DNA from: Catenuloplanes niger
Lineage (GTDB): Bacteria; Actinomycetota; Actinomycetes; Mycobacteriales; Micromonosporaceae
Length of the DNA stretch: 64,000 bases
Reading direction: 5' to 3'
Assembly: GCF_031458255.1 (NCBI RefSeq)
Contig: NZ_JAVDYC010000001.1
Location: 3,295,001 to 3,359,000 of the forward strand
The first letter of the stretch is position 1; the number at the start of each line of letters is the position of its first letter. Shown one piece after another: positions 1,687 through 14,194 of this stretch. The notes beneath the pieces were generated by a model. The model was not told the origin of the DNA. It did no database searches and saw only the letters and a program-made list of their open reading frames with translations. A program made the translations under genes and the position numbers.

Positions 1687-1968
1687 ATGGTAGACGGGAA
1701 CAACTCGCCAGGCAGTGGCCGCTACGGGGCACCCACGGATTGGGCGCAGCGGTGTTACCTGACCGGACCGGGCCGGCACCTAATGCTTGGTGATCGGGTG
1801 GGACTGAACCTGATCAACCCAGACTTTTCGAACAAGCCGGTGCCCGGCACCGTGGTCGGATTCGCTGGACCGGGGTCGGCAATAGCGTTGATTCGCTGGG
1901 ACGACGCGGTCGAAGTAGATGAGATCGACGGTGTTCCGGTGGCGGTCCTGTTTCTGGTGGCTGCCTAA
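1687..1968 (+). CDS. Small hypothetical protein (93 aa)
   Basis: This short ORF runs from ATG 1687, with a GGGGAG-like ribosome site just upstream, to a stop that overlaps by 4 bp the end of the convergent TIR-STAND gene. The product is soluble, with no signal peptide or membrane segment. It reads like a compact beta-rich domain (VGLNLINPDF, GTVVGFAGPG, AIALIRWDDAVEVDEIDG), possibly an SH3-like or KOW-like barrel. I do not recognise the family. Being packed tail to tail against the next gene supports it being real, but a chance ORF cannot be excluded. Confidence 0.4.
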   Translation: MVDGNNSPGSGRYGAPTDWAQRCYLTGPGRHLMLGDRVGLNLINPDFSNKPVPGTVVGFAGPGSAIALIRWDDAVEVDEIDGVPVAVLFLVAA

Positions 1969-4900
1969 CCGGTCTCGGCGTTCGCGGCCGCTCGGATCTG
2001 TTCCAGCAGCACGGCGTCACCGCGACGGACGAAGCAGCGCAGAAGTCGCTGATTGCGATCCATAGCGCCGATGGCACGGGTGATGCCCCGGGCGTGTCGG
2101 TAGGTGTCGATCGCGGCTCGGCCCCGGTCACGATCCCGGGTTGTCAACGCCAGGCCACTGAGCATCAACCCGTACGAGTCCAGCATGGAGTAATCCCGTT
2201 CGTCCTGGTGGAAACGAGAGTCGCAATCGGCCAGTGCTTGACTGAACGAGCTGGTCGCCTTGTCGACCTGTCCAGCGGCAAAGGCGGCCAAGCCGAGAAC
2301 CGCGAAGGCGTTCAGCCGTGCGAGGGTCCGGCGCAGCCCGGTGGCCGCCGTGGCCGCCTCGATGGCGAGTTCCTCGTTTCCGGCGAAGAGGTGGGCCAGG
2401 GCCACGGTGACGTACGCCTCCGTCAACAGAGGCGTGTTGTTCGCGGTGGTTCCGATGCCCACGGCATCCAGCGCGAGCCGGAGGGCAGGCTCCGATCCTT
2501 CCCAATAGAGCCGGTGAGTGGCCTCGCCGTTCAGGCAGGCACCGCGCAGCAGTTGGTCATCCGCCTCGCTGGCCAACTCCCCGGCCGACCGGGCGAGGCG
2601 GATCGCGGATACCGACTGACCCAGTTGACCGAGCACCCAGCTCCGGTTCAGCTGCAGCCGAGCCCGGAGTGCGGGCTCGGGATGAGAGGTCAGGACCTCG
2701 TCGGCTTCATCGAGATAGTGCAGCGCCTCGTCGTGGTGACCGGTCCGGGCCTGGTGCAGAGCGAGGCCCATTTGCGCCTCGGCCAGCTCGGGGCGCAGGC
2801 CATGGCGTGTGCTGTCCCGCATCGCCACGGCATACAAGTCCCGCGCCGCCGCCAGGCGCCCATGACGGAACAGGACACCGCCCAATTGATTGCGAGTGCG
2901 CGCGCGGTTGTCGACGTCCGTGGTCTCCGCCAGCAACCCGAGCAATGCCCGGAGTTGCTCCTCGGCCTCGGCCACGTTGTCCTGCTGATCGAGTGCCGCC
3001 GCCAGATATGACAGGTTGGGACGTTGCGCCTCGGCATCGAGTTTGTCATGGAGGTCGAGCCGCCACCGGTTCAGTGTCGCGCTCCGCCCCCACCGCCGGA
3101 GTGGCTCTTCGTCGACCCGGTTGATCAGCTCGAAGGCGTGCTGCCAATCGTCTGCGGCGATGCGCAACTCGATCTCGCTGAACTGCGGCCACAGGTCTTC
3201 CATGACGTGCGGTCTGGTCCACTGCAGGTGCAGGTATCGGGCGCCGCGCAAACGCAGGATGCGAAGTGTGAAGGGATCACGCCCCTCCGGGCGGTCGGCA
3301 GTCGGCGGGACAGTACCACGGATGATCTCGGCGTCGAGCACCGGCAGGTAATACCGCCCGCCATCACGGTGGATGACATACCGCTCGCACAACCTGTTCA
3401 GCAGAGCCGACGTAATCAGATGAGGCGCAAAGTCGTGCAGCAGGTAACTGATCGCCTCGGGGCCAGCCGGTCGGCCTAACGCGGCCAGCGCCTGGACGAC
3501 CAGACGTTCGGTGCGATCCAGCTTGACCATGATCGCGGCCAGAAGAGCTGCCCGCACATCATCCGGCTCGTCCAGGTCGGTGATGAGTTCCAACAGGCCG
3601 CGGTCGGGATCAACCTGCCGGACCCCGGCCACGAGCTCCAGCAGCCGGGGAAATCCCTTGGTGATTCGGTGCAGCCACGCCAGTTCGCGTTCACCGGCAT
3701 GGGCGAGCCCCAGCGTGCCGTCGTCGAGGCTCTGCAACAGCCAACCGGCTTCCGGCATGGGCACGCCGCCGGAAAGCGGTATGACCTTGGCCCGTTCACC
3801 CAGTCTCTGATGCAACTCGACCGGCTTCCGGGCGGCCGCGACGATCAGGCGAAGCCGGTGATCTGTGCGCTCGACAAGCGCGACCAGGAATGCACCCAGG
3901 TCCCGGTCGATGAACTCACCATCCTTGTCGAGGAGAACATGCGCGTCGTCGATCACGACGTGAACGACAAGGTTGTTCAGCGCGGCAACAACCCTGTCGA
4001 GTTTGCTGTGCCAGGGTTCGGTCGCCGCGAGCCCGTGCCGCAAACGATCGCCGGCATCCTCGTCGGGGAGTGCTCCACAGAGATCGGCCAGGACGACATC
4101 CGGTGTCACCCGCCGGTACCCGCGGGCCCAGAGATAGAGGAACGCGTCCGCGGCCGGCTCCGCACCCCGGCCTCGAAGGACACGACGCAGTGCGGCGAGC
4201 AGTCCCGTCTTGCCGTCCCCGTCACCGCCGACCACCGTGATGACCCGGACAACGTCCCCCTTCAGGTATGTGGTGAGCGCCCTTTGCTGATCATCGCGAT
4301 CGAAGAAGGTGACCGGAGCGCGGATAGGCATCTCGTTGACGCTGATGAACCCCTCATGCACGGATCGAGGCGCAGGCTGTCCGCGCTGCTCGACGTGGCG
4401 AAACGCTTCGTCGCTCCGATCGTCGTCATCCTCCCGGGCCGGCCTCGCGCGCTTCTGCTCCTCTTCCTGCCGGATGCGATGCCAGTCGGCGAGGTCGATG
4501 AGTCGTTCGCGAGTAGGGCCGGTCGCCATCCGGGCAGCCGCCAATGTCTCATGCAGTCGATCGGCACGCTGCTGGGCAACAAATTCTGGCGAGCCGATCC
4601 GCAGGAGCCGTTCGCGTAATTGTTCCCATTCGTCGTCCGATTCCTCGGTGAACGGGAGAGGCGGCTCGCCTTCCAGGTCGAAGGGCAGCTCGATCCGCGG
4701 CACGACCTGCAACGGAAGTATGGGGATGCCCCACCGGTAGGCCCGGAGCGCCTCCTTCTGGCACCAGTTCGGGTTCTTGTCGCGGACGCTTTCCGGGGTC
4801 ATCACGAACAGCAGCACGGCCGAACCGCGCAGGGCACGAGAGATTGCCGTCGGGAATGTCGTGCCAGGGAGACGATCGAAATCCGACCACGGTGTCAGAT

Positions 4901-5003
4901 GTGGAGCGAGGGACCGGAGCCGCGTCCGCAGCCGGTAGACGAAGTCGGGACCGTCGGTGCGGGAGTACGAGATGAAGGCCAGAAGGGCGTCCGCTTGCGG
5001 CAC
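1965..5003 (-). CDS. TIR-STAND NTPase-TPR protein, candidate anti-phage sensor/effector
   Basis: Starts at GTG 5003 with GGAGG 8 bases upstream; the frame is open further upstream, but that part overlaps the divergent regulator and has no family similarity. The 1012-aa product has an N-terminal TIR domain (about 5-105: AFISYSRTDG, then NWCQKEALRA with the catalytic-type Glu84). It then has a charged linker, a STAND/AAA-type NTPase with Walker A GGDGDGKT (259-266) and Walker B VVHVVIDDAH (346-355), and a long alpha-helical TPR-like half to the C-terminus. Such proteins couple ligand sensing by repeats and NTPase oligomerisation to NAD+ cleavage by TIR. The ligand is unknown. A LuxR-type gene is divergent and a SLOG gene lies nearby, suggesting a shared NAD-derived signalling role (inference). 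Confidence 0.85.
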   Translation of the reverse strand: MPQADALLAFISYSRTDGPDFVYRLRTRLRSLAPHLTPWSDFDRLPGTTFPTAISRALRGSAVLLFVMTPESVRDKNPNWCQKEALRAYRWGIPILPLQVVPRIELPFDLEGEPPLPFTEESDDEWEQLRERLLRIGSPEFVAQQRADRLHETLAAARMATGPTRERLIDLADWHRIRQEEEQKRARPAREDDDDRSDEAFRHVEQRGQPAPRSVHEGFISVNEMPIRAPVTFFDRDDQQRALTTYLKGDVVRVITVVGGDGDGKTGLLAALRRVLRGRGAEPAADAFLYLWARGYRRVTPDVVLADLCGALPDEDAGDRLRHGLAATEPWHSKLDRVVAALNNLVVHVVIDDAHVLLDKDGEFIDRDLGAFLVALVERTDHRLRLIVAAARKPVELHQRLGERAKVIPLSGGVPMPEAGWLLQSLDDGTLGLAHAGERELAWLHRITKGFPRLLELVAGVRQVDPDRGLLELITDLDEPDDVRAALLAAIMVKLDRTERLVVQALAALGRPAGPEAISYLLHDFAPHLITSALLNRLCERYVIHRDGGRYYLPVLDAEIIRGTVPPTADRPEGRDPFTLRILRLRGARYLHLQWTRPHVMEDLWPQFSEIELRIAADDWQHAFELINRVDEEPLRRWGRSATLNRWRLDLHDKLDAEAQRPNLSYLAAALDQQDNVAEAEEQLRALLGLLAETTDVDNRARTRNQLGGVLFRHGRLAAARDLYAVAMRDSTRHGLRPELAEAQMGLALHQARTGHHDEALHYLDEADEVLTSHPEPALRARLQLNRSWVLGQLGQSVSAIRLARSAGELASEADDQLLRGACLNGEATHRLYWEGSEPALRLALDAVGIGTTANNTPLLTEAYVTVALAHLFAGNEELAIEAATAATGLRRTLARLNAFAVLGLAAFAAGQVDKATSSFSQALADCDSRFHQDERDYSMLDSYGLMLSGLALTTRDRDRGRAAIDTYRHARGITRAIGAMDRNQRLLRCFVRRGDAVLLEQIRAAANAETG

Positions 5004-5210
5004 AGCACGGCCTCCACCATTAGTGACTCTCGCACCACCGTGGTCATTCTTGCTCGATGGGCAGACCTGTGTCCAGGTCGCGGCAGCAAGCTGACATGCT
5101 GGTCCGTATCCTGGCGCGACCGTGCCGACTCTCGGCCATCGTGAGGCTCCAATCCAGTCCGAGCCTGACCATCTGAGGATGGGGCACCCGTGGGAAGAGG
5201 TCCGCGTCGC

Positions 5211-5810
5211 ATGCCGATCCGGGTAGCGGTCGTCGATCCGCTGCCGGTCTTCGTGGAGGGCCTGACGGCCATCCTCAGTTCGGAAGGCGTCGAGCCGGAG
5301 ACACCCGAAGATCTGATCGCCTGGGCCGCCGGCGACGCACCGTCCGCGATCCTGCTCAGCCTGCTGAGCGCCCGCGAATGGACATTGCTGGCCGAGATCC
5401 ACCGCCTGCGGCCGGATGTCTCGGTGGTAGCGTTAGTGGAAACCCCCGGGCCGGAGACGTCTTTACGCGCCCTGGCTGCCGGTGCGATCGGCGTGCTGCC
5501 CCGTGCTGCATCGCCGTCCTCGGTGCGATTCGCCTTCCGGGCCGCCGTGGACGGACTCAGCCTGCTGCCGGTCGATCTGATGCGCACTCTGGTCGCGAAC
5601 CAGCCCCGTACAGTCAGCGGTCCGCTGTCCGACCGCGAAATCGACTGGCTGCGCCGACTGACCGAAGGGATCAGCGTGTCGCGCCTCGCTGATCGAGCCG
5701 GCTATTCCGAACGGATGATGTTCCGGCTGCTCAACCAGACGTACGCGAAACTGGGCGTGGACAACCGGACCAAGGCCATCATCGCGGCTCGTGATCGTGG
5801 CTGGCTCTGA
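5211..5810 (+). CDS. LuxR/NarL-type regulator with atypical receiver
   Basis: Start chosen at ATG 5211 because GAAGAGG lies about 10 bases upstream; a GTG at 5190 is in frame but less well placed. Residues 1-120 have the fold pattern of a response-regulator receiver (IRVAVVDPLPVFVEGL). The phospho-acceptor Asp expected near residue 50 is replaced (AILLSLLSAREW), and the conserved Lys is Arg (GVLPRAAS). Residues 134-199 are a LuxR-type helix-turn-helix (LSDREIDWLRRLTEGISVS...). It is therefore probably not controlled by ordinary phosphorylation. It is divergent from the TIR-STAND gene (about 208 bp between starts) and overlaps tail to tail with the SLOG gene by 32 bp. Regulation of its neighbours is plausible but not shown. 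Confidence 0.8.
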   Translation: MPIRVAVVDPLPVFVEGLTAILSSEGVEPETPEDLIAWAAGDAPSAILLSLLSAREWTLLAEIHRLRPDVSVVALVETPGPETSLRALAAGAIGVLPRAASPSSVRFAFRAAVDGLSLLPVDLMRTLVANQPRTVSGPLSDREIDWLRRLTEGISVSRLADRAGYSERMMFRLLNQTYAKLGVDNRTKAIIAARDRGWL

Positions 5811-6753
5811 GGCCGGTGAGGATCAGTTCGACGGCCCGCCACGGGTCGGTGGTGGTGGCCAGTTCGTCGTTCTGGTCGTCGGTCAGGCCGTTGTTCAGGG
5901 CGGCGGCCAGACCACCGGCTCCGCGGCGGCGCAATTCGTCGGCCGCCTCCTCGGGGCTGACGAGCGGATGTTCGCGTTTCCGGTACTCGTCGAACAGACC
6001 GGACCAGCCCTTGACGTGGTGGGCACACCAGTCTTCGGTGAGTTCGGGCCGGTCGTCGCCGCGCAGGACGTCGACAACTGCCCGAGTGGCCCCACCGAAG
6101 GCGCCGAGCAGGTAAACCGGTCGGCCCTTCTCCAAGGTCAGCAGCACCTCCTCGGCGACACCCGGCAGCACACCGAGATACCCGGTGAGCTTGCCGCCGA
6201 GTGCCACCCGGGCGGTCGCATCGTCCGTGGTGTCCGTGCGCATCCGGGTCAGACCGAGGGAGCTGGGGTAGCGACCGAGTGGTTCCGTCTCCCGGTATCC
6301 GTCAGCTGCGGCCAGGTCCAGTTCCCGCTGGGGGACGCGGGGGTCCTCCGGCCGTCTTCCCTCGATTAGATTGGCCCGGTCGCGCCGATAGAAGTTGCGG
6401 TCTGCTTCGGACATCCTGACATGCCACGGCAGAGGTACGTGGTTGACGATCGGCCGGATCGGCCGGTCGACCTGCTCGGACATGGGTGTGTGCCGCTCCA
6501 CCAGATCCATGAGGCGGCGGACGTAGTTCATGTCGTCGCCGGGTGCGCTGCCGTCCTTTCGGACAGCGCCATGCTCCAGCGATCCGCCGTAGAGGAGCCG
6601 GTAGCCACCGACCAGGAGATATAGCGCGAGGTCGTGGGCCACGGTGGCCAGGTGGACGTCGGGCCCGAGGTAGCCGACGGTCCCGACGCGCTCGGCCCGC
6701 TGGCCATCCGGATCCTCAACGAGGGCCTCCGCCCGTTCATGGTTCGCTGGCAC
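5779..6753 (-). CDS. SLOG-superfamily protein (TIR-associated type)
   Basis: The 324-aa product has the SLOG Rossmann-like pattern: an early helix and strand ending in LVGGYRLLYGGS, and a late signature GGKLTGYLGVLPGVAEEVL followed by RPVYLLGAFGGATRAV. SLOG proteins bind nucleotide-derived ligands such as ADP-ribose derivatives, and are partners or fusions of TIR, Macro or SIR2 domains in defence systems such as Thoeris. No effector domain is visible here, so it may act as a sensor, sequestering protein or enzyme. Start at GTG 6753 has AGG 5 bases upstream, but the first ~25 residues overlap an opposite-strand reading frame and may not be native. It lies between two TIR genes. Confidence 0.7.
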   Translation of the reverse strand: MPANHERAEALVEDPDGQRAERVGTVGYLGPDVHLATVAHDLALYLLVGGYRLLYGGSLEHGAVRKDGSAPGDDMNYVRRLMDLVERHTPMSEQVDRPIRPIVNHVPLPWHVRMSEADRNFYRRDRANLIEGRRPEDPRVPQRELDLAAADGYRETEPLGRYPSSLGLTRMRTDTTDDATARVALGGKLTGYLGVLPGVAEEVLLTLEKGRPVYLLGAFGGATRAVVDVLRGDDRPELTEDWCAHHVKGWSGLFDEYRKREHPLVSPEEAADELRRRGAGGLAAALNNGLTDDQNDELATTTDPWRAVELILTGLRASHDHEPR

Positions 6754-6909
6754 ACCGACCTGCGCGCCTTCGAGGCCCAGAGCAACGCCCCGTCGGACGA
6801 GTCGGGCTGGCCCCGGCGGGCCGAGTTCGACGCCGACCTGCAGCGGGTGCAGGGCGAGTTGGCGATCTATGTGGAAATGCTGGCCAAGCTGGCCGGCGTC
6901 AAATCCTGA
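6634..6909 (+). pseudogene. 5'-truncated remnant of a larger conserved protein
   Basis: This frame is closed upstream by TAG at 6622. From about 6688 it reads GPLAIRILNEGLRPFMVRWHTDL and then a helical tail (ELAIYVEMLAKLAGV). That looks like the conserved C-terminal end of a bigger actinobacterial protein whose N-terminal part is absent. Its 5' end overlaps by about 120 bp the start of the opposite-strand SLOG gene, so the two probably meet at a rearrangement junction near 6680. I cannot name the family. It could also be a small intact gene starting at GTG 6634. Confidence 0.4.
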
Positions 6910-7046
6910 CCCGGGTGGACGATTCGCCGGTATCGAACTGTTGCACGTGACGCCTGCCCGTTCGGTCGCCAGGGCGCATCGAAGAGACGCAAGTTACAAC
7001 TGGTTCTCGAAGTGTCACGCTGAGCTTGCTCGTGTTGACTTAGGCC

Positions 7047-10000
7047 ATGCGGGCATCGGTCGATCATTACGACGCGTTCATCTCGTACAGCCATCAAGCG
7101 GACAAGCTACTGGCTCAGGCGTTACAGACAGAGCTCGAGAAGTTCGCGCGTCCCTGGTACAAGCCGCGGGCGCTGCGGGTCTTCCGGGACGAGACCAGTT
7201 TGTCGATGACGCCGAACGCCTGGTCGACGATCCAGGCCGGGCTGGAGAAGGCCGAATGGTTCGTGCTGATGGCCTCTCCGGCGTCGGCCGCCTCCCACTG
7301 GGTGTCGCAGGAGGTGCAGTGGTGGCTTACCCATCGGCGCACTGATCGGATGTTGCTCGCGCTGACCGACGGGGACATCCGATGGTTGGGCCGCGACTTC
7401 GACTGGACCATGACCACCGCGCTGCCGCGCGCCCTGGCCGGCCGGTTCGGCGAGGAACCATTATGGATTGATCTGCGTCAGCTTGTGCCGCAGCAACCCG
7501 CCGCCCCGACGGCACCGTCAAGGATCACCCTCGGTGACCTGGTCGCGGAGTTCGCGGCCCCGATCCGTAACCGCCCCAAGGACGCCTTGATCGGCGCCCA
7601 CCTGCGGCTGGGTAAGAGGATCAGGCGGCTGATCGCGAGCACCGTCGTTGTGCTGACGTTGCTGTCGGCGGCGGCGGTGTCGGCGGCGGTGATCGCCAAT
7701 CAGCAGCGGCTGGAGGCGGAGCGGCAGGCCCGGGTGGCCAAGTCGCAGCAGCTGGCGGCCAACATCGACGCTCTGCTGCCCACGCAACTCGACCTGGCCC
7801 AGCTGCTCGCGGTGCAGGCGTACCGGATCGACCCCAACCGCCAGACCGAGATGGCGTTGCTACAGGCCGCCAACGCCAGCCCGGCGCTGGTCCGCTACAC
7901 CCACTTCGGCGCGTCGGTCACGGCCCTGGTGGGCTCGGCCGACGGCCGTACGGCAGTCATCGGCACAGCCGACGGCGAGGTGGCCACATGGGACGTCGCG
8001 AGCGGAGCCCGTCGTACGGCCGGGAAGTTGTCCGGATCGGTGGCCTCGGTTGCCGTCAGCGGTGACGGTGCGGTGGTGGCCGCGGCTGGCGGTGACGGTG
8101 CGACCGTCTGGGCTGAGGGATCTCCGCCCGCAAAGCTGGACAAGCCGGCCGGTGAGGGCATTCTTGCGGCAGCCGTGTCGCCGTCCGGCCGCTTCGTGGC
8201 CCTGTCCGCCGGGCCTGATCTGGGCGAGGACGGAGCTACCGGTGTTGTTCTGTCCGACCGGACGACTGGCCGGGTCCGGAAGGCTACGACGACCGTGTGG
8301 CCTGGACTGCTCGCGATGCCCACCGACAGCGAACTCATCGCGTCCAACGACAGCGGTAACTGGCAGCGGCTCAGAACCGCCGACCTCTCCGGTGAGGAAC
8401 CCCCGCAGGTGGTGAACGCCGGGGCACACCCGAGGGGTCTCGCCACGTCGGCCAACGGAAACTTCTTCGGCTACCACAGCGGCTCGGGAATGGTCCAGAT
8501 CACCGCGACCACCGGTGACGTGGCCGCCCGGGAGGAGGAAGGCGACCTGTTCGGCGCGACGGCGGGCAGCGAGGCGGAAACGATGGCAATCAGTCCGGAC
8601 GGGCGAACGCTGGCCACGGCCCAGGCTGGACGCATCTTCGTCACACCCACGGTCGGTCCGGGCCAGGACCAGCCCAGCCCGTCCGCTCACGGCGGCAATC
8701 GCACGATCAGTGAGCTGGCTTTCGCCGGGGACGGCGAACACCTGCTCTCCGCGACCGGCACAGCTGTCGTCCTGTGGGACTTCGACCAGCCGGGCCGGGC
8801 CGGCGTCGATCTGCCGGTCAGTGTCGACCAGGGGTGCTACAGCTGCGAAGCGCCGCAGGTGATGCTCAGCCCGGACGGGCAACGAGTTCTCGTAGCGGGT
8901 TCGAGAGGAGTGATTTCGATACGCGAGCTCAGCGCGGCCGGATCGGAGGTCCGGCTGGCTCCGGACGACGTCGGCGGCTACCGGCTGGCCGGTTCGAGCC
9001 CGGACGGGAGCAAGTGGTATCTCCAGGCCCCGGACGGAACACTGGAGATTCGCTCCGCCGCCGCTCTGGGGGCGCCCATCTTGGGCCGATCGAGGGGATT
9101 GGCACCGTATCGGGTTGTCGGTTTAACTGCGGACGAGCAGCAGGCGGTCACCTATCAAGATCAAAAGCTCGAGCTGCGCAGCGTCGATGACGGCAAGCTA
9201 ATCCGGACTCTCTTCAGACAAGGCGCCGTCGACTACCATGTCGTCGTCGGTGCGGGGGCACGAAGGCTTTCGTCCTCGACGAGGCGGCCACGAGCATCGA
9301 CCTGGCCACCGGCCGACGCACGGAGACCGGCCAAGGTGCGGTCGCCGAGATCTATGCCGGCCGCGATTACCTCATCATTCAACGCCGGAGCGGCCTTCTG
9401 GAGATCTGGAATGCCGACGGCACCAAGCTGCAGCACAGTGTCCAGCAGGGCAAGGACTACCTGAGCGCCACCCCTACGTTCCGCACGGCGCCCAGCATCG
9501 GCGGCGGCAAACTGGTCCAGCAGCGGTCCAACGGGGAGCTGACGGTGCTCGACCTGGCCGACAATACGGTTGTGGCGACGCTGCCGGGCGCCGACTACTC
9601 CAAGATCGGGCTCGCGCTGGCCCCGGACGGGCGACGGCTGATCACCGCGACCGAAGGCTCGACAGAACCGCTTAGCGGATCGCTCAAGATCTGGAGTCTC
9701 GACCCGCAGTCGCTCGTGACGACGGCCTGCCAAGCCGTCGGCCGCGATCTGACCTCGACCGAACGCCAGACCTACCTCGCTCCCCTCGTGCCAGACAAGC
9801 CCACGTGCAGCCCCTCCGACCCCGTACCGTCGAAGCCAGCGCCGGACCCGAAAACCCAAGCCCAGACAACCTCGGCCGTTCTGCAGCAGATGAACCGGCA
9901 GCGCCTCTCGATCCGCAACCCCATCGACTCCTCGGCACGATGCGCGGGCGACCTCGAGACGCACAGCCGCGCACTGACCGAGGCCGGCGCGGCCCGCGAA

Positions 10001-10297
10001 TACCTGGCCTCCCAGTTGGCCCGCCACGACATGTCGGCGCTGCCGCAGGGCTCGCTGCTGAAAAACCGGATGCGCAACGCGCTCAACCTGTCCGGCGCGG
10101 TCGATCGCGAATTCGCGCAGTGGGCGGCCGACCTCGGCGGTACCTGCCACATCGATACGGCGACGGCCAACCCGCATTATGAGCGGGCGCTCGCGTTGAG
10201 CCAGCTCGCCTCCTTGGAGAAGCAGGAGGTCAGCCGACTCTGGACGGCGACCGCAAACCAGTACGGATACCCTCAGTGGACCGCCGCACAGCTCTGA
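7047..10297 (+). CDS. Membrane TIR / beta-propeller protein, split by a one-base frameshift
   Basis: From ATG 7047 the product has a TIR domain (7-130: DAFISYSHQADK, SHWVSQEVQWW with Glu89). A single membrane segment follows (about 195-217), then a coiled linker (QQRLEAERQARVAKSQQLAA), then a WD40-like propeller with many SxDGRT-type strands. The first frame ends at 9464 as unrelated residues. At 9254-9258 there is a run of five Gs; six Gs would restore VVVGAGGTKAFVLDEA and an unbroken frame to TGA 10297, about 1083 aa. The C-terminal 250 residues hold the last blade, a Pro-rich linker and an unassigned helical domain. So it is a recent pseudogene, a phase-variable tract, a programmed slip or a sequencing error. 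Its likely role is a TIR-linked sensor at the membrane. Confidence 0.75.
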
Positions 10298-10326: not shown

Positions 10327-10625
10327 ACGCTGGGTCCACCACTGCGACCACCAGCCCCACCCGTCCTGGATCGCCATCCACTGGCGCGAGGACGACCCGC
10401 AGCAGACCGGCGCCCACACCGCACTTGACCAGCTACTCAACCCGCGGCACACCGAGACAATACCGGCGGGAGCCGCCCGCATGGCGTTCGCTGAGCGTCT
10501 ACACGGCCGCGCTCGACGACCGCCACCTCACCCCTGTTTCCCCTGCGCAACCAGATCCGCGGGATCGGCCACACCACCCCGCACTCGGCGGCTGGCATCC
10601 TCGCCGACGGCACCATCATCGCCGG
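10327..10625 (+). pseudogene. Fragment of a PCMT-like methyltransferase, homologue of the gene at 46745-47788
   Basis: RWVHHCDHQPHPSWIAI-HWREDDPQQTGAHTALDQLL matches residues of the 347-aa methyltransferase at the end of the lanthipeptide cluster (RWVDYCDHQQDPSWISI-AWRDDDPQRTGARAALDRLL). After two frameshifts it continues WRSLSVYTAALDDRHLTP and LRNQIRGIGHTTPHSAAGILADGTIIAG, matching the same protein in order. The SAM-binding N-terminal half and the last ~50 residues are missing. It is a dead C-terminal fragment, ending at a sharp junction near 10625 with another broken gene. Confidence 0.8.
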
Positions 10626-10628
10626 ACC

Positions 10629-10755
10629 GGAGTTCGTCTTCCGACAGAAACCTGAGGCCGTCAAGCAGTCTTCTCGCTGCGGCTTTATCGTCACCATCGA
10701 AGTTGGACAGCCAGCTGTGCCCTTCGCTGGTCTCGCTCGGCCGGATTCCCGCCAT
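10629..10755 (-). pseudogene. N-terminal fragment of a PRTase-like gene (tentative)
   Basis: From ATG 10755 the frame reads MAGIRPSETSEG then WLSNFDGDDKAAARRLLDGL and RFLSEDELRSG. That resembles the first ~45 residues of phosphoribosyltransferase-like proteins found in nucleotide-signalling and defence operons. It then runs into the antisense of the methyltransferase fragment, so the rest is lost. The 290 bases beyond its start (10756-11041) show nothing I can assign except a CCTGCGG/CCGCAGG inverted repeat near 10950-10985. The family call is by eye and weak. Confidence 0.3.
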
Positions 10756-11041
10756 GGTGCCAGCGTAGCTGGATCCCCCGGTCGCGGCGGCCAGGACCAT
10801 CTGGCCCTGCCGATTGTCTCGCCCTGCGGCGAGGGCGACCTTTCCTTCGCTCCGGGCCGCCGTCAAGCCTCCGCCACCTCTGGACTGATACAAGCCCTCA
10901 GCGAGAGGGCGGTTCCTCGCACTCAGGCGGGCGGGGCTGTGACTGCGACCTGCGGCGAAGGAGTGCGGCCCTCGCTCCGCAGGGGCGAGCATGACGTCAG
11001 GGCCACGCTCCCGGGTGATCCGAACGGTCGCGCGTTGATGC

Positions 11042-11785
11042 CTATAGCCGGACCGCCCCGCCGTAGATGTCAAGCGGTGCGAGCACGCTGTCGTACCAGG
11101 AGTCGATTTCGGTGCGGTGAGTGCCGTGGCGTAGTGAGCGGTAGGCGGTCCAGGCGACGAGGTCTGCGGCTTGGACCCATTGGCTGGTGCTGGCGTGGCG
11201 GAAGAACGGGTCTTCGATCAGCCGGCTCGTCGTGGTGTTCCGCTGGTGGTGGCTGGTGGCGTAGCTGGTGTTGCTGCCGTCGCCGTCCATGATCACGCTG
11301 CCGTAGGTGTCGGTGGCGAGGAGTCGGGCGTCGAGCGTGTCCAGGAGACGCTGGTAGAGGTCTTGTTTGGTGTGCTCGAAGGCACGGCCGCGTGCCGTTG
11401 TCCTGCGGTAGACGCTGCCGACGGCGGCTCCCGGCAGGGACGCGATCGTCTCGATGCCGTGCCGGAGAATCTGCCGTCCGTGGTCGGCGGATTTTCCGGC
11501 TGTGCCGCGTGTGCGGTAGCCGCGGCCGGTGGCCAGGTCGGTGGCGTGGAGCCGGTCTGCGGTGGGGATGCCGTAGCGCTCGTGCAGCGCGGTCCGGTAA
11601 GAGTTCCACCGGTCGGCGGCGTCCGTCCAGGTGGCGGGGCTGATTTCGATCCAGCTAAAGGTGGTGCAGCCGGCGGCTTCGCTGCCGGAATCGTCGATGT
11701 AGAAGAGGGTGAAGTTGCAGGACGGCCGGGTGGCGGCGTTCGGCCTGAGCGGGGTGGGGGTCTTTCGCTGCCGGGCCCGGTTCAT
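11042..11785 (-). CDS. DUF3800 family protein
   Basis: The 247-aa product shows the DUF3800 pattern: an N-terminal strand with two acidic residues (FTLFYIDDSGSEAAG), and a C-terminal acidic motif (WVQAADLVAWTAYRSL). Together these suggest an RNase-H-like nuclease fold. The start at ATG 11785 overlaps the stop of the upstream excisionase-like gene by ATGA, indicating translational coupling; a longer open frame upstream only shadows that gene. DUF3800 genes are common cargo on integrated elements, and some act in defence. Substrate and role are unknown. Confidence 0.75.
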   Translation of the reverse strand: MNRARQRKTPTPLRPNAATRPSCNFTLFYIDDSGSEAAGCTTFSWIEISPATWTDAADRWNSYRTALHERYGIPTADRLHATDLATGRGYRTRGTAGKSADHGRQILRHGIETIASLPGAAVGSVYRRTTARGRAFEHTKQDLYQRLLDTLDARLLATDTYGSVIMDGDGSNTSYATSHHQRNTTTSRLIEDPFFRHASTSQWVQAADLVAWTAYRSLRHGTHRTEIDSWYDSVLAPLDIYGGAVRL

Positions 11786-11970
11786 TTCGCCGCGCACTCC
11801 GTTTCGAGCCAGGCGTCGATGTCCGCCTTCCGGTATCTGCGGTACTTGCCGACTTTGTACGACTTGGGGCCTTTGCCCTTGTGGTTGATGAAGTACAGGG
11901 TCTGCTCGCTGAGCCCGAGGTAGGCGGCTGCCTCCTCGTGCGACCACAGTCCTCTTGCTCCGTCCGCCAT
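11782..11970 (-). CDS. Excisionase-like MerR-type helix-turn-helix protein
   Basis: This 62-aa protein is one DNA-binding domain (LWSHEEAAAYLGLSEQTLYF, then YRRYRKADIDAWLE). That is the typical size and sequence of AlpA/excisionase-type proteins of actinomycete integrative elements. It would help the tyrosine integrase encoded at 12.9 kb to excise the element, or act as a small regulator. It is the first gene of a two-gene unit with the DUF3800 gene. It starts next to a long inverted repeat (11976-12030), which places its promoter under likely operator control. Confidence 0.8.
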   Translation of the reverse strand: MADGARGLWSHEEAAAYLGLSEQTLYFINHKGKGPKSYKVGKYRRYRKADIDAWLETECAAK

Positions 11971-11975
11971 CTGCC

Positions 11976-12030
11976 CTCACTTACCGAATCGGCAAGTAGA
12001 TCCACTAGATCTACCTTTTCGGAAAGTGAG
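11976..12030. promoter_or_regulatory. Divergent operator region with nested inverted repeats
   Basis: CTCACTT at 11976-11982 and AAGTGAG at 12024-12030 are the ends of a long imperfect palindrome. Inside, GTAGATC and GATCTAC pair. The left part is itself a palindrome, ACTTACCGAATCGGCAAGT. The right part on the opposite strand reads ACTTTCCGAAAAGGT, giving two related sites with an ACTTNCCGA half-site. The region lies between the divergent excisionase-like and XRE genes, so it is probably the operator that controls both. Confidence 0.65.
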
Positions 12031-12080
12031 ACTGCTCCGGGTCTTGCTAGTTGTCAAGGAGGCGAGTAAAACTTACGAAC

Positions 12081-12680
12081 ATGACAAGTGATCGTGCCGA
12101 GGTGCAGGTGGAGACACCGGGCGAGGTCGCCCGTCGGCGGATCCGTGAGGTGCGCAAGGCGCGCAAGCTCAGCCCGACGGCGGCGGCGGAGCGCTATGGC
12201 GATGCGGCGATGACCGCGACGGTGCTGATGAACATCGAGGCCGGGCGCCGCCAGTCGGTCACGGTCGACGAGTTGGTCCGGCTCGCGTACGTGCTGGACG
12301 TGCCGGTGGAGGCGCTGCTGGTCGGACCGGGTGCAGTGGTGGAGGTCACGCCGGGGGTCTCGGTGGACTCGGGCCGGTTCCTGCGCTGGCTGCGCGGGCA
12401 GGAGGCGCTGGACGGCGCGGACGCCGATCACTATCGCGCGGTCTCCGCCGAGGCCCTCGGTGATGCCGGCCGTGGTGTGCCGCAGGAGCTTCGGGATGAG
12501 TTCCTGGCTCGGGCGCAGGCGGCCTTCGACGGTTTCTTCGCCGATAGCGAAGAGATCCACCACAAGACCCGGCAGCAGGTCCGCGGCGTGCTCAGCGACG
12601 TCCGCGAGGCGGTCTCGTCCGGCAAGTCGACGGACGAACTGCTCGGGATCATCGACACCTACCTCAACCGGCTCGAGTAA
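12081..12680 (+). CDS. XRE-type helix-turn-helix regulator of the integrative element
   Basis: The 199-aa product has an N-terminal XRE-type DNA-binding domain (VARRRIREVRKARKLSP, then MNIEAGRRQSVTVDELVRLA and YVLDVPVEALLVG). A helical C-terminal half follows that may mediate oligomerisation or ligand sensing. The start is taken at ATG 12081. An AAGGAGG at 12056 is about 18 bases away, too far for an ideal site, and a TTG at 12051 is the alternative. It is divergent from the excisionase-like gene across the nested operator, so it likely represses or activates element excision and itself. Confidence 0.75.
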   Translation: MTSDRAEVQVETPGEVARRRIREVRKARKLSPTAAAERYGDAAMTATVLMNIEAGRRQSVTVDELVRLAYVLDVPVEALLVGPGAVVEVTPGVSVDSGRFLRWLRGQEALDGADADHYRAVSAEALGDAGRGVPQELRDEFLARAQAAFDGFFADSEEIHHKTRQQVRGVLSDVREAVSSGKSTDELLGIIDTYLNRLE

Positions 12681-12952
12681 GCCCCAGCCCCACCACCACA
12701 AGACTCGGCTGACCGGCCCGTAAGACCCACGCGGTACACGGGCGGCTCAACCATGCCCTGATCACGCCGTTCACGCGGCTCCATATGACCCCATACCGAC
12801 ATAGATCAACCCTGCGGCGCGGCCGCAGGGCCATCCCTTCGTGCCCTCAGCCCGCTGCCGCGCCGGCAGCCGGGCCGATCCCGCACGCCCTCGCACAGAA
12901 CCGGCGCCGTCTCGGCGGCCCGGGAGCACATCGCACAGCAAAGGAACACCAG

Positions 12953-14194
12953 ATGGCTCGCGCATGGATCAATCCCCGCTCTGACGGCCCCGGCTACACG
13001 GTGTACTGGTACGACGCGAACCAGAAGCAGCGCCAGCGGTCCTTCAAGAAGAAGGTCGACGCCGAGAAGTTCCGGGCCAAGACCGAACGCGACCTCGACA
13101 CCGGCGTCTACATCGAGGCCGAGCACGCCGGGGAGACCATCACCCGGCTCTTCGCCCGGTGGGCGACCACCCGCGGGCTGGAGAACTCCAGCGTCCGGCA
13201 GTACCGCAGCATGCTCAACCAGGCCATCGCCCCGTACTTCAAGGCGAAAACGATCGGCGCGCTCCGGCAAACCGATGTGCAGGCCTGGGTGCTGTGGATG
13301 AAGGACACCAAGCGGTACGCGCCCCAGACGATCCAGACGCGATTCGGGTACCTGTCCTCGGCGTTGCAGTGGGCCGTCGTCAACCAGGAACTCGGCCGGA
13401 ATCCGGCCAAGGGCGTCAAGCTGCCCGGCCGGCGGGCGAACGTGCGACGCATCGCCAAACGGAAAATCATCGTGCCGTCTCTGGCGGAGATCGACGCGCT
13501 CGCCGCCGCGTTCGACCCGCGGTACGCGGCGATGGTGTGGCTCATGGCCGGATGCGGGATGCGCATCGGCGAGGTCATGGGCCTGTGCCGCGATCAGATC
13601 GACTTCCGCAAGCAGATCCTGCACGTCGACCGGCAAATCACCGAGGACGGCGAAACCGACAGCGGCAAGAACGCCGGCCTCCGGCTGAAGCGCTACACCA
13701 AACACCGCGACGAGGACACACCCGGCCGAGACGTTCCACTGCCCGCCATCGTCGCGAAAATCCTGCGCGCGCACCTGCGCGAGTACGGCACCTACGGCCC
13801 CGATCAGCTACTGTTTCCCAACAGCACACGGACTGGCCTGATCTACCAGTACTTCTTCCGCAACCAGCTGTGGCTGCCAGCCCTAAAGAACGCACGGGTC
13901 TCATTCATCAAAACCCACGCGCTGCGCCACTTCTTCGCCTCTTCCCTGCTCAGCCGCGGCGTGCCGATCACCGATGTCAGCGTCTGGCTCGGCCACTCCA
14001 ACGTCGAGATCACCTACGCGTACTACGGCCACCTGATGCCCGACGCCCCCGAACGCGGCCGGACCGCCATCGACCTCGCCATGCAGCCGCCGACCGATCC
14101 TGAGAACGCCGGACTTCCCTCTGAAGCGTCGGAGCGCGTCGCAGATATCCCTCTCGACGAGGGCACTGATCCACAAGATCCACTCGCCGCATAG
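12953..14194 (+). CDS. int: Tyrosine recombinase (site-specific integrase)
   Basis: The 413-aa protein is a full-length integrase. It has an N-terminal Arm-type DNA-binding domain (YTVYWYDANQKQRQRSF), a core-binding SAM-like domain (about 60-150), and a catalytic domain with Arg204 (CGMRIGEVMGL), His322-x-x-Arg325 (HALRHFFAS), His348 (WLGHSNVEITY) and the nucleophile Tyr358 (YYGHL). Start at ATG 12953 has AAGGA about 8 bases upstream; an upstream in-frame extension lacks family features. It integrates and excises the surrounding element at an attachment site, usually a tRNA 3' end. No tRNA gene was seen immediately next to it. Confidence 0.92.
   Translation: MARAWINPRSDGPGYTVYWYDANQKQRQRSFKKKVDAEKFRAKTERDLDTGVYIEAEHAGETITRLFARWATTRGLENSSVRQYRSMLNQAIAPYFKAKTIGALRQTDVQAWVLWMKDTKRYAPQTIQTRFGYLSSALQWAVVNQELGRNPAKGVKLPGRRANVRRIAKRKIIVPSLAEIDALAAAFDPRYAAMVWLMAGCGMRIGEVMGLCRDQIDFRKQILHVDRQITEDGETDSGKNAGLRLKRYTKHRDEDTPGRDVPLPAIVAKILRAHLREYGTYGPDQLLFPNSTRTGLIYQYFFRNQLWLPALKNARVSFIKTHALRHFFASSLLSRGVPITDVSVWLGHSNVEITYAYYGHLMPDAPERGRTAIDLAMQPPTDPENAGLPSEASERVADIPLDEGTDPQDPLAA

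Follow-up and report, generated by a model that had tools for sequence, protein, structure and literature searches.

The effector-associated-domain conflict systems of Kaur and colleagues, as set out in parts of PMC7159879 and PMC8195603, carry TIR, trypsin-like and effector-associated (EAD) domains that are swapped on an NTPase core. Sections of PMC8195603 also mention receivers that lack a histidine kinase, as possible effectors in ternary systems, and an ECF-like helix-turn-helix (HTH) that points, for some TRADD-N systems, to a response at the level of transcription. Thoeris, in the portion of PMC11204291 that deals with it, consists of the TIR protein ThsB and of ThsA, a SIR2-SLOG or TM-macro protein, and a TIR-SLOG antiviral theme appears in part of PMC9503650. 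The locus described here lies in a window of 64,000 nucleotides (positions 3,295,001–3,359,000) of the 9.74 Mb, single-contig genome of Catenuloplanes niger, where four genes between 1965 and 10297 specify a TIR-STAND-TPR protein, a LuxR-type regulator, a SLOG protein and a second TIR protein with WD40 repeats. They are not one system: the intact part is probably a two-gene, NLR-like conflict module, made up of the STAND-TPR protein and a phosphorylation-blind LuxR-type partner, and the SLOG and TIR-WD40 genes look like damaged neighbours stemming from other TIR systems.

The STAND gene (1965–5003, minus strand) is intact by its Pfam matches, its structure model and its best relatives, which align across nearly the whole length. 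Matches to TIR_2 (1e-12) and TPR_12 are above the Pfam cut-off, and those to AAA_22/nSTAND6 are weak and under it. Translation was taken to start at a GTG at 5003 that is preceded by GGAGG, and the open frame continues upstream to 5402; the codon at 5027, where alignment A4 begins, is GTC and not a start codon, so that this alignment carries 8 extra residues. Numbered from the GTG, Glu84 sits in the motif NWCQKEA (residue 144 of P0001) and the Walker A motif at residues 259–266 is GGDGDGKT, both as given in an earlier note on this DNA; in two alignments three of the Walker A glycines are invariant and the lysine is kept in at least 90%. TIR, NTPase and TPR parts are all visible in the model (44-row alignment; mean predicted local distance difference test score, pLDDT, 88.9), for which the top fold match is the STAND-TPR protein 6mfv (E 3.6e-14, TM-scores 0.37/0.52), with the plant TIR-NLR RPP1, CED-4, Apaf-1 and MalT following amid many TPR-only matches. 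No match to this protein was found in the PDB by sequence. A Walker A P-loop between an N-terminal effector and C-terminal repeats is the architecture of STAND (NLR-like) NTPases, and the TIR fold with its Glu, a residue that is catalytic in the family generally, is that of a predicted catalytic NADase.

The adjacent gene (5190–5810, plus strand, with an alternative ATG at 5211) encodes a LuxR/NarL-type regulator, identified from its GerE domain (8e-6, above the Pfam cut-off) and predicted fold. The receiver match is weak (0.047), and at the phospho-Asp site, which the earlier note had correctly reported as lost, the protein has Ser57, with Arg105 in place of the conserved Lys. Its predicted structure (pLDDT 93.8) has the fold of a response regulator and matches ChrA, LiaR and VraR, with AmiR, deposited in the PDB together with AmiC, at rank 32. 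DNA binding is predicted from the C-terminal GerE-type HTH, of the LuxR/NarL kind. The STAND and LuxR genes diverge from an intergenic region (5004–5210) that is a candidate for a shared promoter and LuxR-binding region; it contains a single, weak sigma-70-like match (9 of 12, minus strand, 5075–5046).

The two genes recur side by side in other genomes. Among 300 same-family genomes, scanned at E<=1e-20 with two candidate stretches scored per genome (so that counts are lower bounds), the STAND protein was found at no fewer than 31 places in 30 genomes, and the LuxR subfamily lies within 5 kb at 28 of the 31, the window included. That subfamily is present at E<=1e-28 in 52 of the 300 genomes (two more are reached by 1e-20, followed by ordinary regulators), and in 2 of 296 genomes, its own included, in a sparse draw over the class. 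A first set of 41 loci comprised the window, the 30 other STAND places and 10 further LuxR places; LuxR occurs in 38, STAND in 40 and both in 37, and at the 10 places chosen by LuxR alone, from the same genomes, STAND is present in nine. Named genomes were also scanned with the LuxR alignment; the 77 loci obtained overlap in part with the first set, and a STAND profile built from the first set matched in the flank at 64 of the 77 (E<=1e-15), 63 of them at E<1e-40. In a control of 20 ordinary LuxR regulator loci, hand-picked from the strongest ordinary matches rather than taken at random, there was one match, partial and with E 1e-16. No third gene family was found in more than 5 of the 41 loci, after open reading frames (ORFs) antisense to the pair by their coordinates had been set aside.

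Joining both sets gave 100 pairs, of which 79 have different STAND cores and are here called unique; carriers include Actinoplanes, Micromonospora, Nonomuraea, Streptomyces, Amycolatopsis and Frankia. The unique pairs are convergent in 57 cases, co-directional with LuxR downstream in 19, and divergent in three, including the window, so the adjacency is kept despite a varying gene order. The open frames end within 40 bases of each other in 47 of the 57 convergent pairs. Such a tail-to-tail arrangement is unusual for functionally linked genes, and the abutment may provide an added antisense control. The divergence of the two proteins is correlated (r 0.84 for the STAND and LuxR distances over 74 pairs, compared with a maximum of 0.14 in 2000 shuffles). 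A second pair is found in the same genome as the window (G000:C1:1197000-1212000, L110), with a TCAD9 N-terminus on the STAND protein, a pseudo-receiver LuxR protein and convergent genes. At L180 (Nonomuraea endophytica) parts of STAND and LuxR run together in one ORF, probably through a deletion, with a second LuxR-like HTH downstream, and additional LuxR matches are present in L120, L128 and L132.

Across the 79 unique module proteins, the phospho-Asp column of the LuxR partner is Thr in 69, Ser in 8, Gly in one and a gap in one, and the conserved-Lys column is Arg in 78; the ordinary regulators have Asp and Lys at these positions in 20 of 20. With Thr or Ser in 77 of 79 and Arg in 78 of 79, it is the whole sampled subfamily, and not the window copy alone, that is without the usual phosphorylation switch, and by these residues its members would not be classed as two-component response regulators. 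Their HTH carries a near-invariant GYSER-M-R-L motif.

In the STAND proteins of these pairs the N-terminal domain is exchanged. The 79 unique members have TIR in 13, TCAD9 in 28 (by local profiles), EAD1 in four (L077, just under the Pfam cut-off, L078, L079 and L087), trypsin in two (L084 by Pfam, L086 by similarity) and a DisA-type DAC domain in three (L159 by Pfam, L161 and L179 by similarity), the remainder being short or untyped. For the three DAC-bearing proteins, cyclic di-AMP (c-di-AMP) is a possible output, judging by the domain. Pfam searches of 39 full proteins detected TIR_2 in 12, TCAD9 in 9, EAD1 in 5 and Trypsin_2 in 3, a tally that holds one EAD1 and one trypsin more than the individually named members. 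The STAND-core phylogeny (FastTree) needs at least seven changes of type to account for its 47 typed rows, four being the minimum for five types.

The remaining two genes have a different history. The ORF with the SLOG domain (5779–6753, minus strand), whose tail shares 32 bases with that of the LuxR gene, matches LD_cluster2 (3e-45) from profile position 24 of 264 onwards; the LD clusters reportedly owe their definition to Burroughs and colleagues (2015). It is 53% identical to residues 442–732 of a 734-residue TIR-SLOG protein. In the G175 relative, also of 734 residues, TIR is at 201–290 and SLOG at 425–713, and the gene is divergent from one for a 155-residue protein that we call the helical partner, a name given from its sequence. 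By blastn, window positions 5803–6661, to which the DNA homology with the relative's SLOG region is limited, correspond to 10458–11319 of locus L009, and 6660–6911 to L009 12917–13162. This places a deletion junction, with two shared bases, at 6660/6661, where 1,599 positions of the relative (about 1.6 kb) are missing. This segment held the half with the TIR, the beginning of the SLOG domain and some 74 codons of the partner gene. The first 27–30 residues of the SLOG ORF are antisense to the partner gene. What is left of the latter (6658–6909, plus strand) is a C-terminal remnant that matches model positions 73–156 of 166 (alignment A3, E 1e-26) and is 83% identical in DNA to the relative's partner. 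The SLOG ORF is thus, on its sequence, a deletion remnant and not a complete gene, and it stands apart from a TIR domain in the window because its own TIR part was deleted. As an intact separate gene it was rejected on account of the junction.

G175 and G123 have TIR and SLOG in one protein, G146 and G262 have them as separate neighbours, and the partner adjoins SLOG at four of five SLOG loci in other genomes of the family, the fifth being on a 7.8-kb contig. Outside the family, four of six matching plasmid regions were opened, with three TIR-LD_cluster2 fusions and one pair of overlapping neighbours. From these relatives and plasmids, a TIR domain in cis or next door is the apparent normal state for this SLOG domain, and one that the window copy has lost along with an intact partner. 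A first contig scan with the SLOG protein returned no relative, and an order-wide search with the TIR-SLOG protein (E<=1e-20) found it in the window only (1 of 298 genomes).

The partner family has no Pfam name and occurs in 18 of the 300 family genomes, its own included. The gene stands at L009 12693–13160 and L010 9161–9928, and is beside TIR-SLOG in four genomes; besides the window remnant, it is in the flank of TIR-WD40 at four places (G146, G106, G052 and a copy to the left of the window). In G148, G053 and G149 it lies close to other TIR genes, and in G156 it forms a fusion with a TIR protein. In G161, G277, G228 and G251 no TIR gene was found by these searches. TIR systems in general may have a partner in this family.

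The fourth gene (7047–10297, plus strand) had been described in the earlier note as a membrane TIR/beta-propeller protein with Glu89. TIR_2 and WD40 are indeed found by Pfam, there is a single hydrophobic stretch at residues 199–217, and Glu89 lies in HWVSQEV, but the gene is not one frame over its length. By blastp, the 7047 frame matches the G146 relative to about 9270 and the +2 frame takes over from about 9287, and two more relatives agree. This break (at about 9240–9290) may be a sequencing error. TIR-WD40 relatives are frequent by themselves, being found at E<=1e-30 in 37 of 200 genomes, its own included, and every listed match is stop-free.

The earlier note had proposed a single system of NAD signalling in which different proteins carry TIR and SLOG, which would predict conserved co-occurrence of the four genes. 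In its fullest form, the TIR proteins would make a signal of the cyclic ADP-ribose type, the SLOG protein would sense it and the LuxR protein would regulate the system. All four genes do lie inside 8.3 kb, and in G146 the genes for TIR, SLOG, partner and TIR-WD40 are contiguous, the sole such case among the five SLOG loci; a link between SLOG and TIR-WD40 may exist for that reason. A system of all four is nevertheless highly improbable, and was rejected: the SLOG ORF is truncated at the junction and the TIR-WD40 frame is broken, SLOG and partner occur in none of 117 other STAND/LuxR loci (E<=1e-6; 7–18 kb each, some places fetched twice), TIR-WD40 occurs in four of them (L109, L141, L143 and L187, the first two being the same place), and STAND or LuxR matches are absent from the 15 SLOG and TIR-WD40 loci searched. 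For the set of four, the loci read thus show the lack of co-occurrence that the note itself had taken as refuting, and one such system is not supported. What recurs instead is the pair of STAND and LuxR, strongly, and the grouping of TIR, SLOG and helical partner. The note's SLOG assignment holds for the domain and fails for the gene, which lacks its proper start. It is unlikely that this ORF gained a new start after the deletion and works as a protein on its own: its frame is open for 324 codons with a third-position GC of 0.81, and a separate SLOG gene beside a TIR gene is seen in G146, G262 and a Pseudomonas plasmid, but the first 23 or so profile positions are gone, replaced by antisense of the partner gene, and no TIR gene of its own type is left beside it.

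For the intact pair, it is rather doubtful that STAND and LuxR make up a conventional regulatory unit for metabolism or development, in the manner of a divided MalT or AfsR, with N-termini that signal and have no part in killing or immunity. Such a unit would fit the MalT-like TPR matches in 16 of 39 members, the presence of MalT among the fold matches, the strong conservation of the HTH motif and the 27 of 74 core-tree rows that have no typed N-terminal domain. It sits poorly with the swapping of TIR, trypsin, EAD1, TCAD9 and DAC on one core, with the absence of any third family beyond 5 of the 41 loci, and with the exchange of TIR, trypsin-like and EAD domains as a pattern of prokaryotic conflict systems, as described in parts of PMC7159879 and PMC8195603. 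That the two genes are independent and have been brought together by joint horizontal transfer is quite unlikely; the neighbourhoods do vary and share no widely common third gene, as expected of mobile cargo, but the adjacency holds in three relative orientations and LuxR members without STAND are a minority. Several observations nonetheless count against a two-gene conflict module. LuxR is missing at three of the 31 STAND places (G151, G195 and G145, the last being L095, at a contig end), and 14 of the 52 LuxR-bearing genomes contribute no locus to the first set. STAND is missing from the flank at 13 of the 77 LuxR loci; five of these are within 1 kb of a contig end on one side (L119, L131, L145, L188 and L192), six more are metagenome-assembled genomes, the LuxR match of L191 spans 52 residues only, and L122, on a contig as long as that of L101, has full flanks, yet no STAND. 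The divergent order of the window is itself rare, and correlated protein distances would also be expected from joint inheritance without contact. A promoter and repeat search at 4960–5260 gave nothing firm and did not identify a LuxR-binding site. The N-terminal types are not all clean, and some may represent two-domain proteins, because seven otherwise-typed rows (L073, L074, L077, L079, L084, L087 and L128) also match the TIR profile; the FastTree run gave two long-branch warnings, and given the untyped rows some modules may have no effector.

A conflict module of STAND-TPR protein and LuxR-type partner remains our preferred interpretation, and immune use is its likeliest role by analogy, because the exchanged N-terminal domains are those of conflict systems described in parts of PMC7159879 and PMC8195603. 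Judging from the protein families and from the fold matches to 6mfv, RPP1, CED-4 and Apaf-1, the TPR superhelix of the STAND protein would sense a trigger, leading to nucleotide exchange and oligomerisation, and the oligomer would then turn on its N-terminal domain. In the window copy that domain is a TIR with its catalytic Glu, so the likely output would be NAD+ breakdown or a TIR-made nucleotide signal, and the module may act in phage defence. The LuxR-type partner may take its signal from a ligand or from physical interaction with the STAND-TPR protein, and would either set the expression of the module or supply a transcriptional second output. Its control can be modelled on two regulators of known workings, as a split counterpart of MalT or in the manner of AmiR, which is held by AmiC. 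More tentatively, and as a possibility rather than an expectation, the pairs may constitute an undescribed actinomycete family of NLR-like immune systems, with one sensor core, exchangeable outputs (TIR, TCAD9, protease, a c-di-AMP-cyclase-like DAC and the adaptor EAD1) and a regulator gated by contact with the NLR-like protein, giving a transcriptional arm beside the killing arm. If so, bacterial NLR-like proteins would gain a recurring transcription-factor partner, and it could be asked whether such receptors only kill or also reprogram transcription, as receptors of plants and animals do. The locus also carries a caution, in that a cluster taken from a single genome may mimic a new system while half of it is wreckage.

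The region is rich in TIR genes and shows decay. An IS5-type transposase fragment (374–808) lies to the left of the TIR genes, and on their right (11042–14194) are a DUF3800 gene, an HTH gene and a tyrosine recombinase, which may mark a mobile element. Within about 9 kb to the left of the window start there is a second, uninterrupted TIR-WD40 gene (L010 3407–6115) and a full copy of the helical partner (L010 9158–9928), and the ORFs around them resemble, by eye, transposase pieces. PADLOC gave weak matches for the second TIR protein (ThsB, 3e-5; PDC-S66, 4e-5), the STAND protein (PDC-S02, 0.013) and the LuxR protein (CasR, 0.037), and none for the SLOG ORF; NCBIfam matches among the TIR, STAND, LuxR and SLOG pieces were similarly weak (Thoeris ThcB4, 0.0025; retron TIR, 0.007). 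All of these are weak or far under curated cut-offs, and no PADLOC or NCBIfam name fits the five pieces, in agreement with the earlier note, which had recognised no named system here.

The pair of STAND and LuxR is unmentioned in the open-licence literature searched; the word LuxR occurs once in PMC7159879 (2020), in the reference list, and is absent from the main text of PMC8195603 (2021). Thoeris shares with the window the presence of TIR and SLOG domains in one neighbourhood, and the second TIR protein is weakly ThsB-like (3e-5), but PADLOC found no ThsA match among the window proteins, and the SLOG domain is an LD_cluster2 domain alone which, in relatives, is fused to or directly follows its own TIR and is accompanied by the helical partner. 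It is the TIR-SLOG proteins that have the same LD_cluster2 SLOG, and the window copy differs from them in having lost the TIR and the start of the SLOG domain. The module shares with the Kaur systems, in the parts of the papers cited above, the exchange of TIR, trypsin-like and EAD domains on an NTPase core. Their ternary systems, as those parts present them, centre on MoxR-vWA plus a third component, whereas the usual partner here is a LuxR-type regulator; no third gene family of any kind recurs in more than 5 of the 41 loci, a count made without a MoxR/vWA profile search. MalT and other large LuxR-type regulators likewise combine STAND, TPR and a LuxR-type HTH, and MalT is among the fold matches, but the module is split over two genes (all listed pairs except L180, an apparent deletion fusion), so that it is not a single polypeptide of the MalT type, its HTH comes with a pseudo-receiver, and its STAND protein has an N-terminal domain. 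The regulator has the receiver and GerE HTH fold of NarL/FixJ response regulators and AmiR, and departs from them in the Thr or Ser at the phospho-Asp site and the Arg at the conserved Lys. With the NLR-like STAND proteins (RPP1, Apaf-1/CED-4 and 6mfv) the module has in common an N-terminal effector, a STAND NTPase with Walker A and C-terminal repeats. It is set apart from those proteins in that its N-terminus is swapped for TCAD9, EAD1, trypsin or DAC and that a gene for a pseudo-receiver LuxR partner recurrently travels with it.

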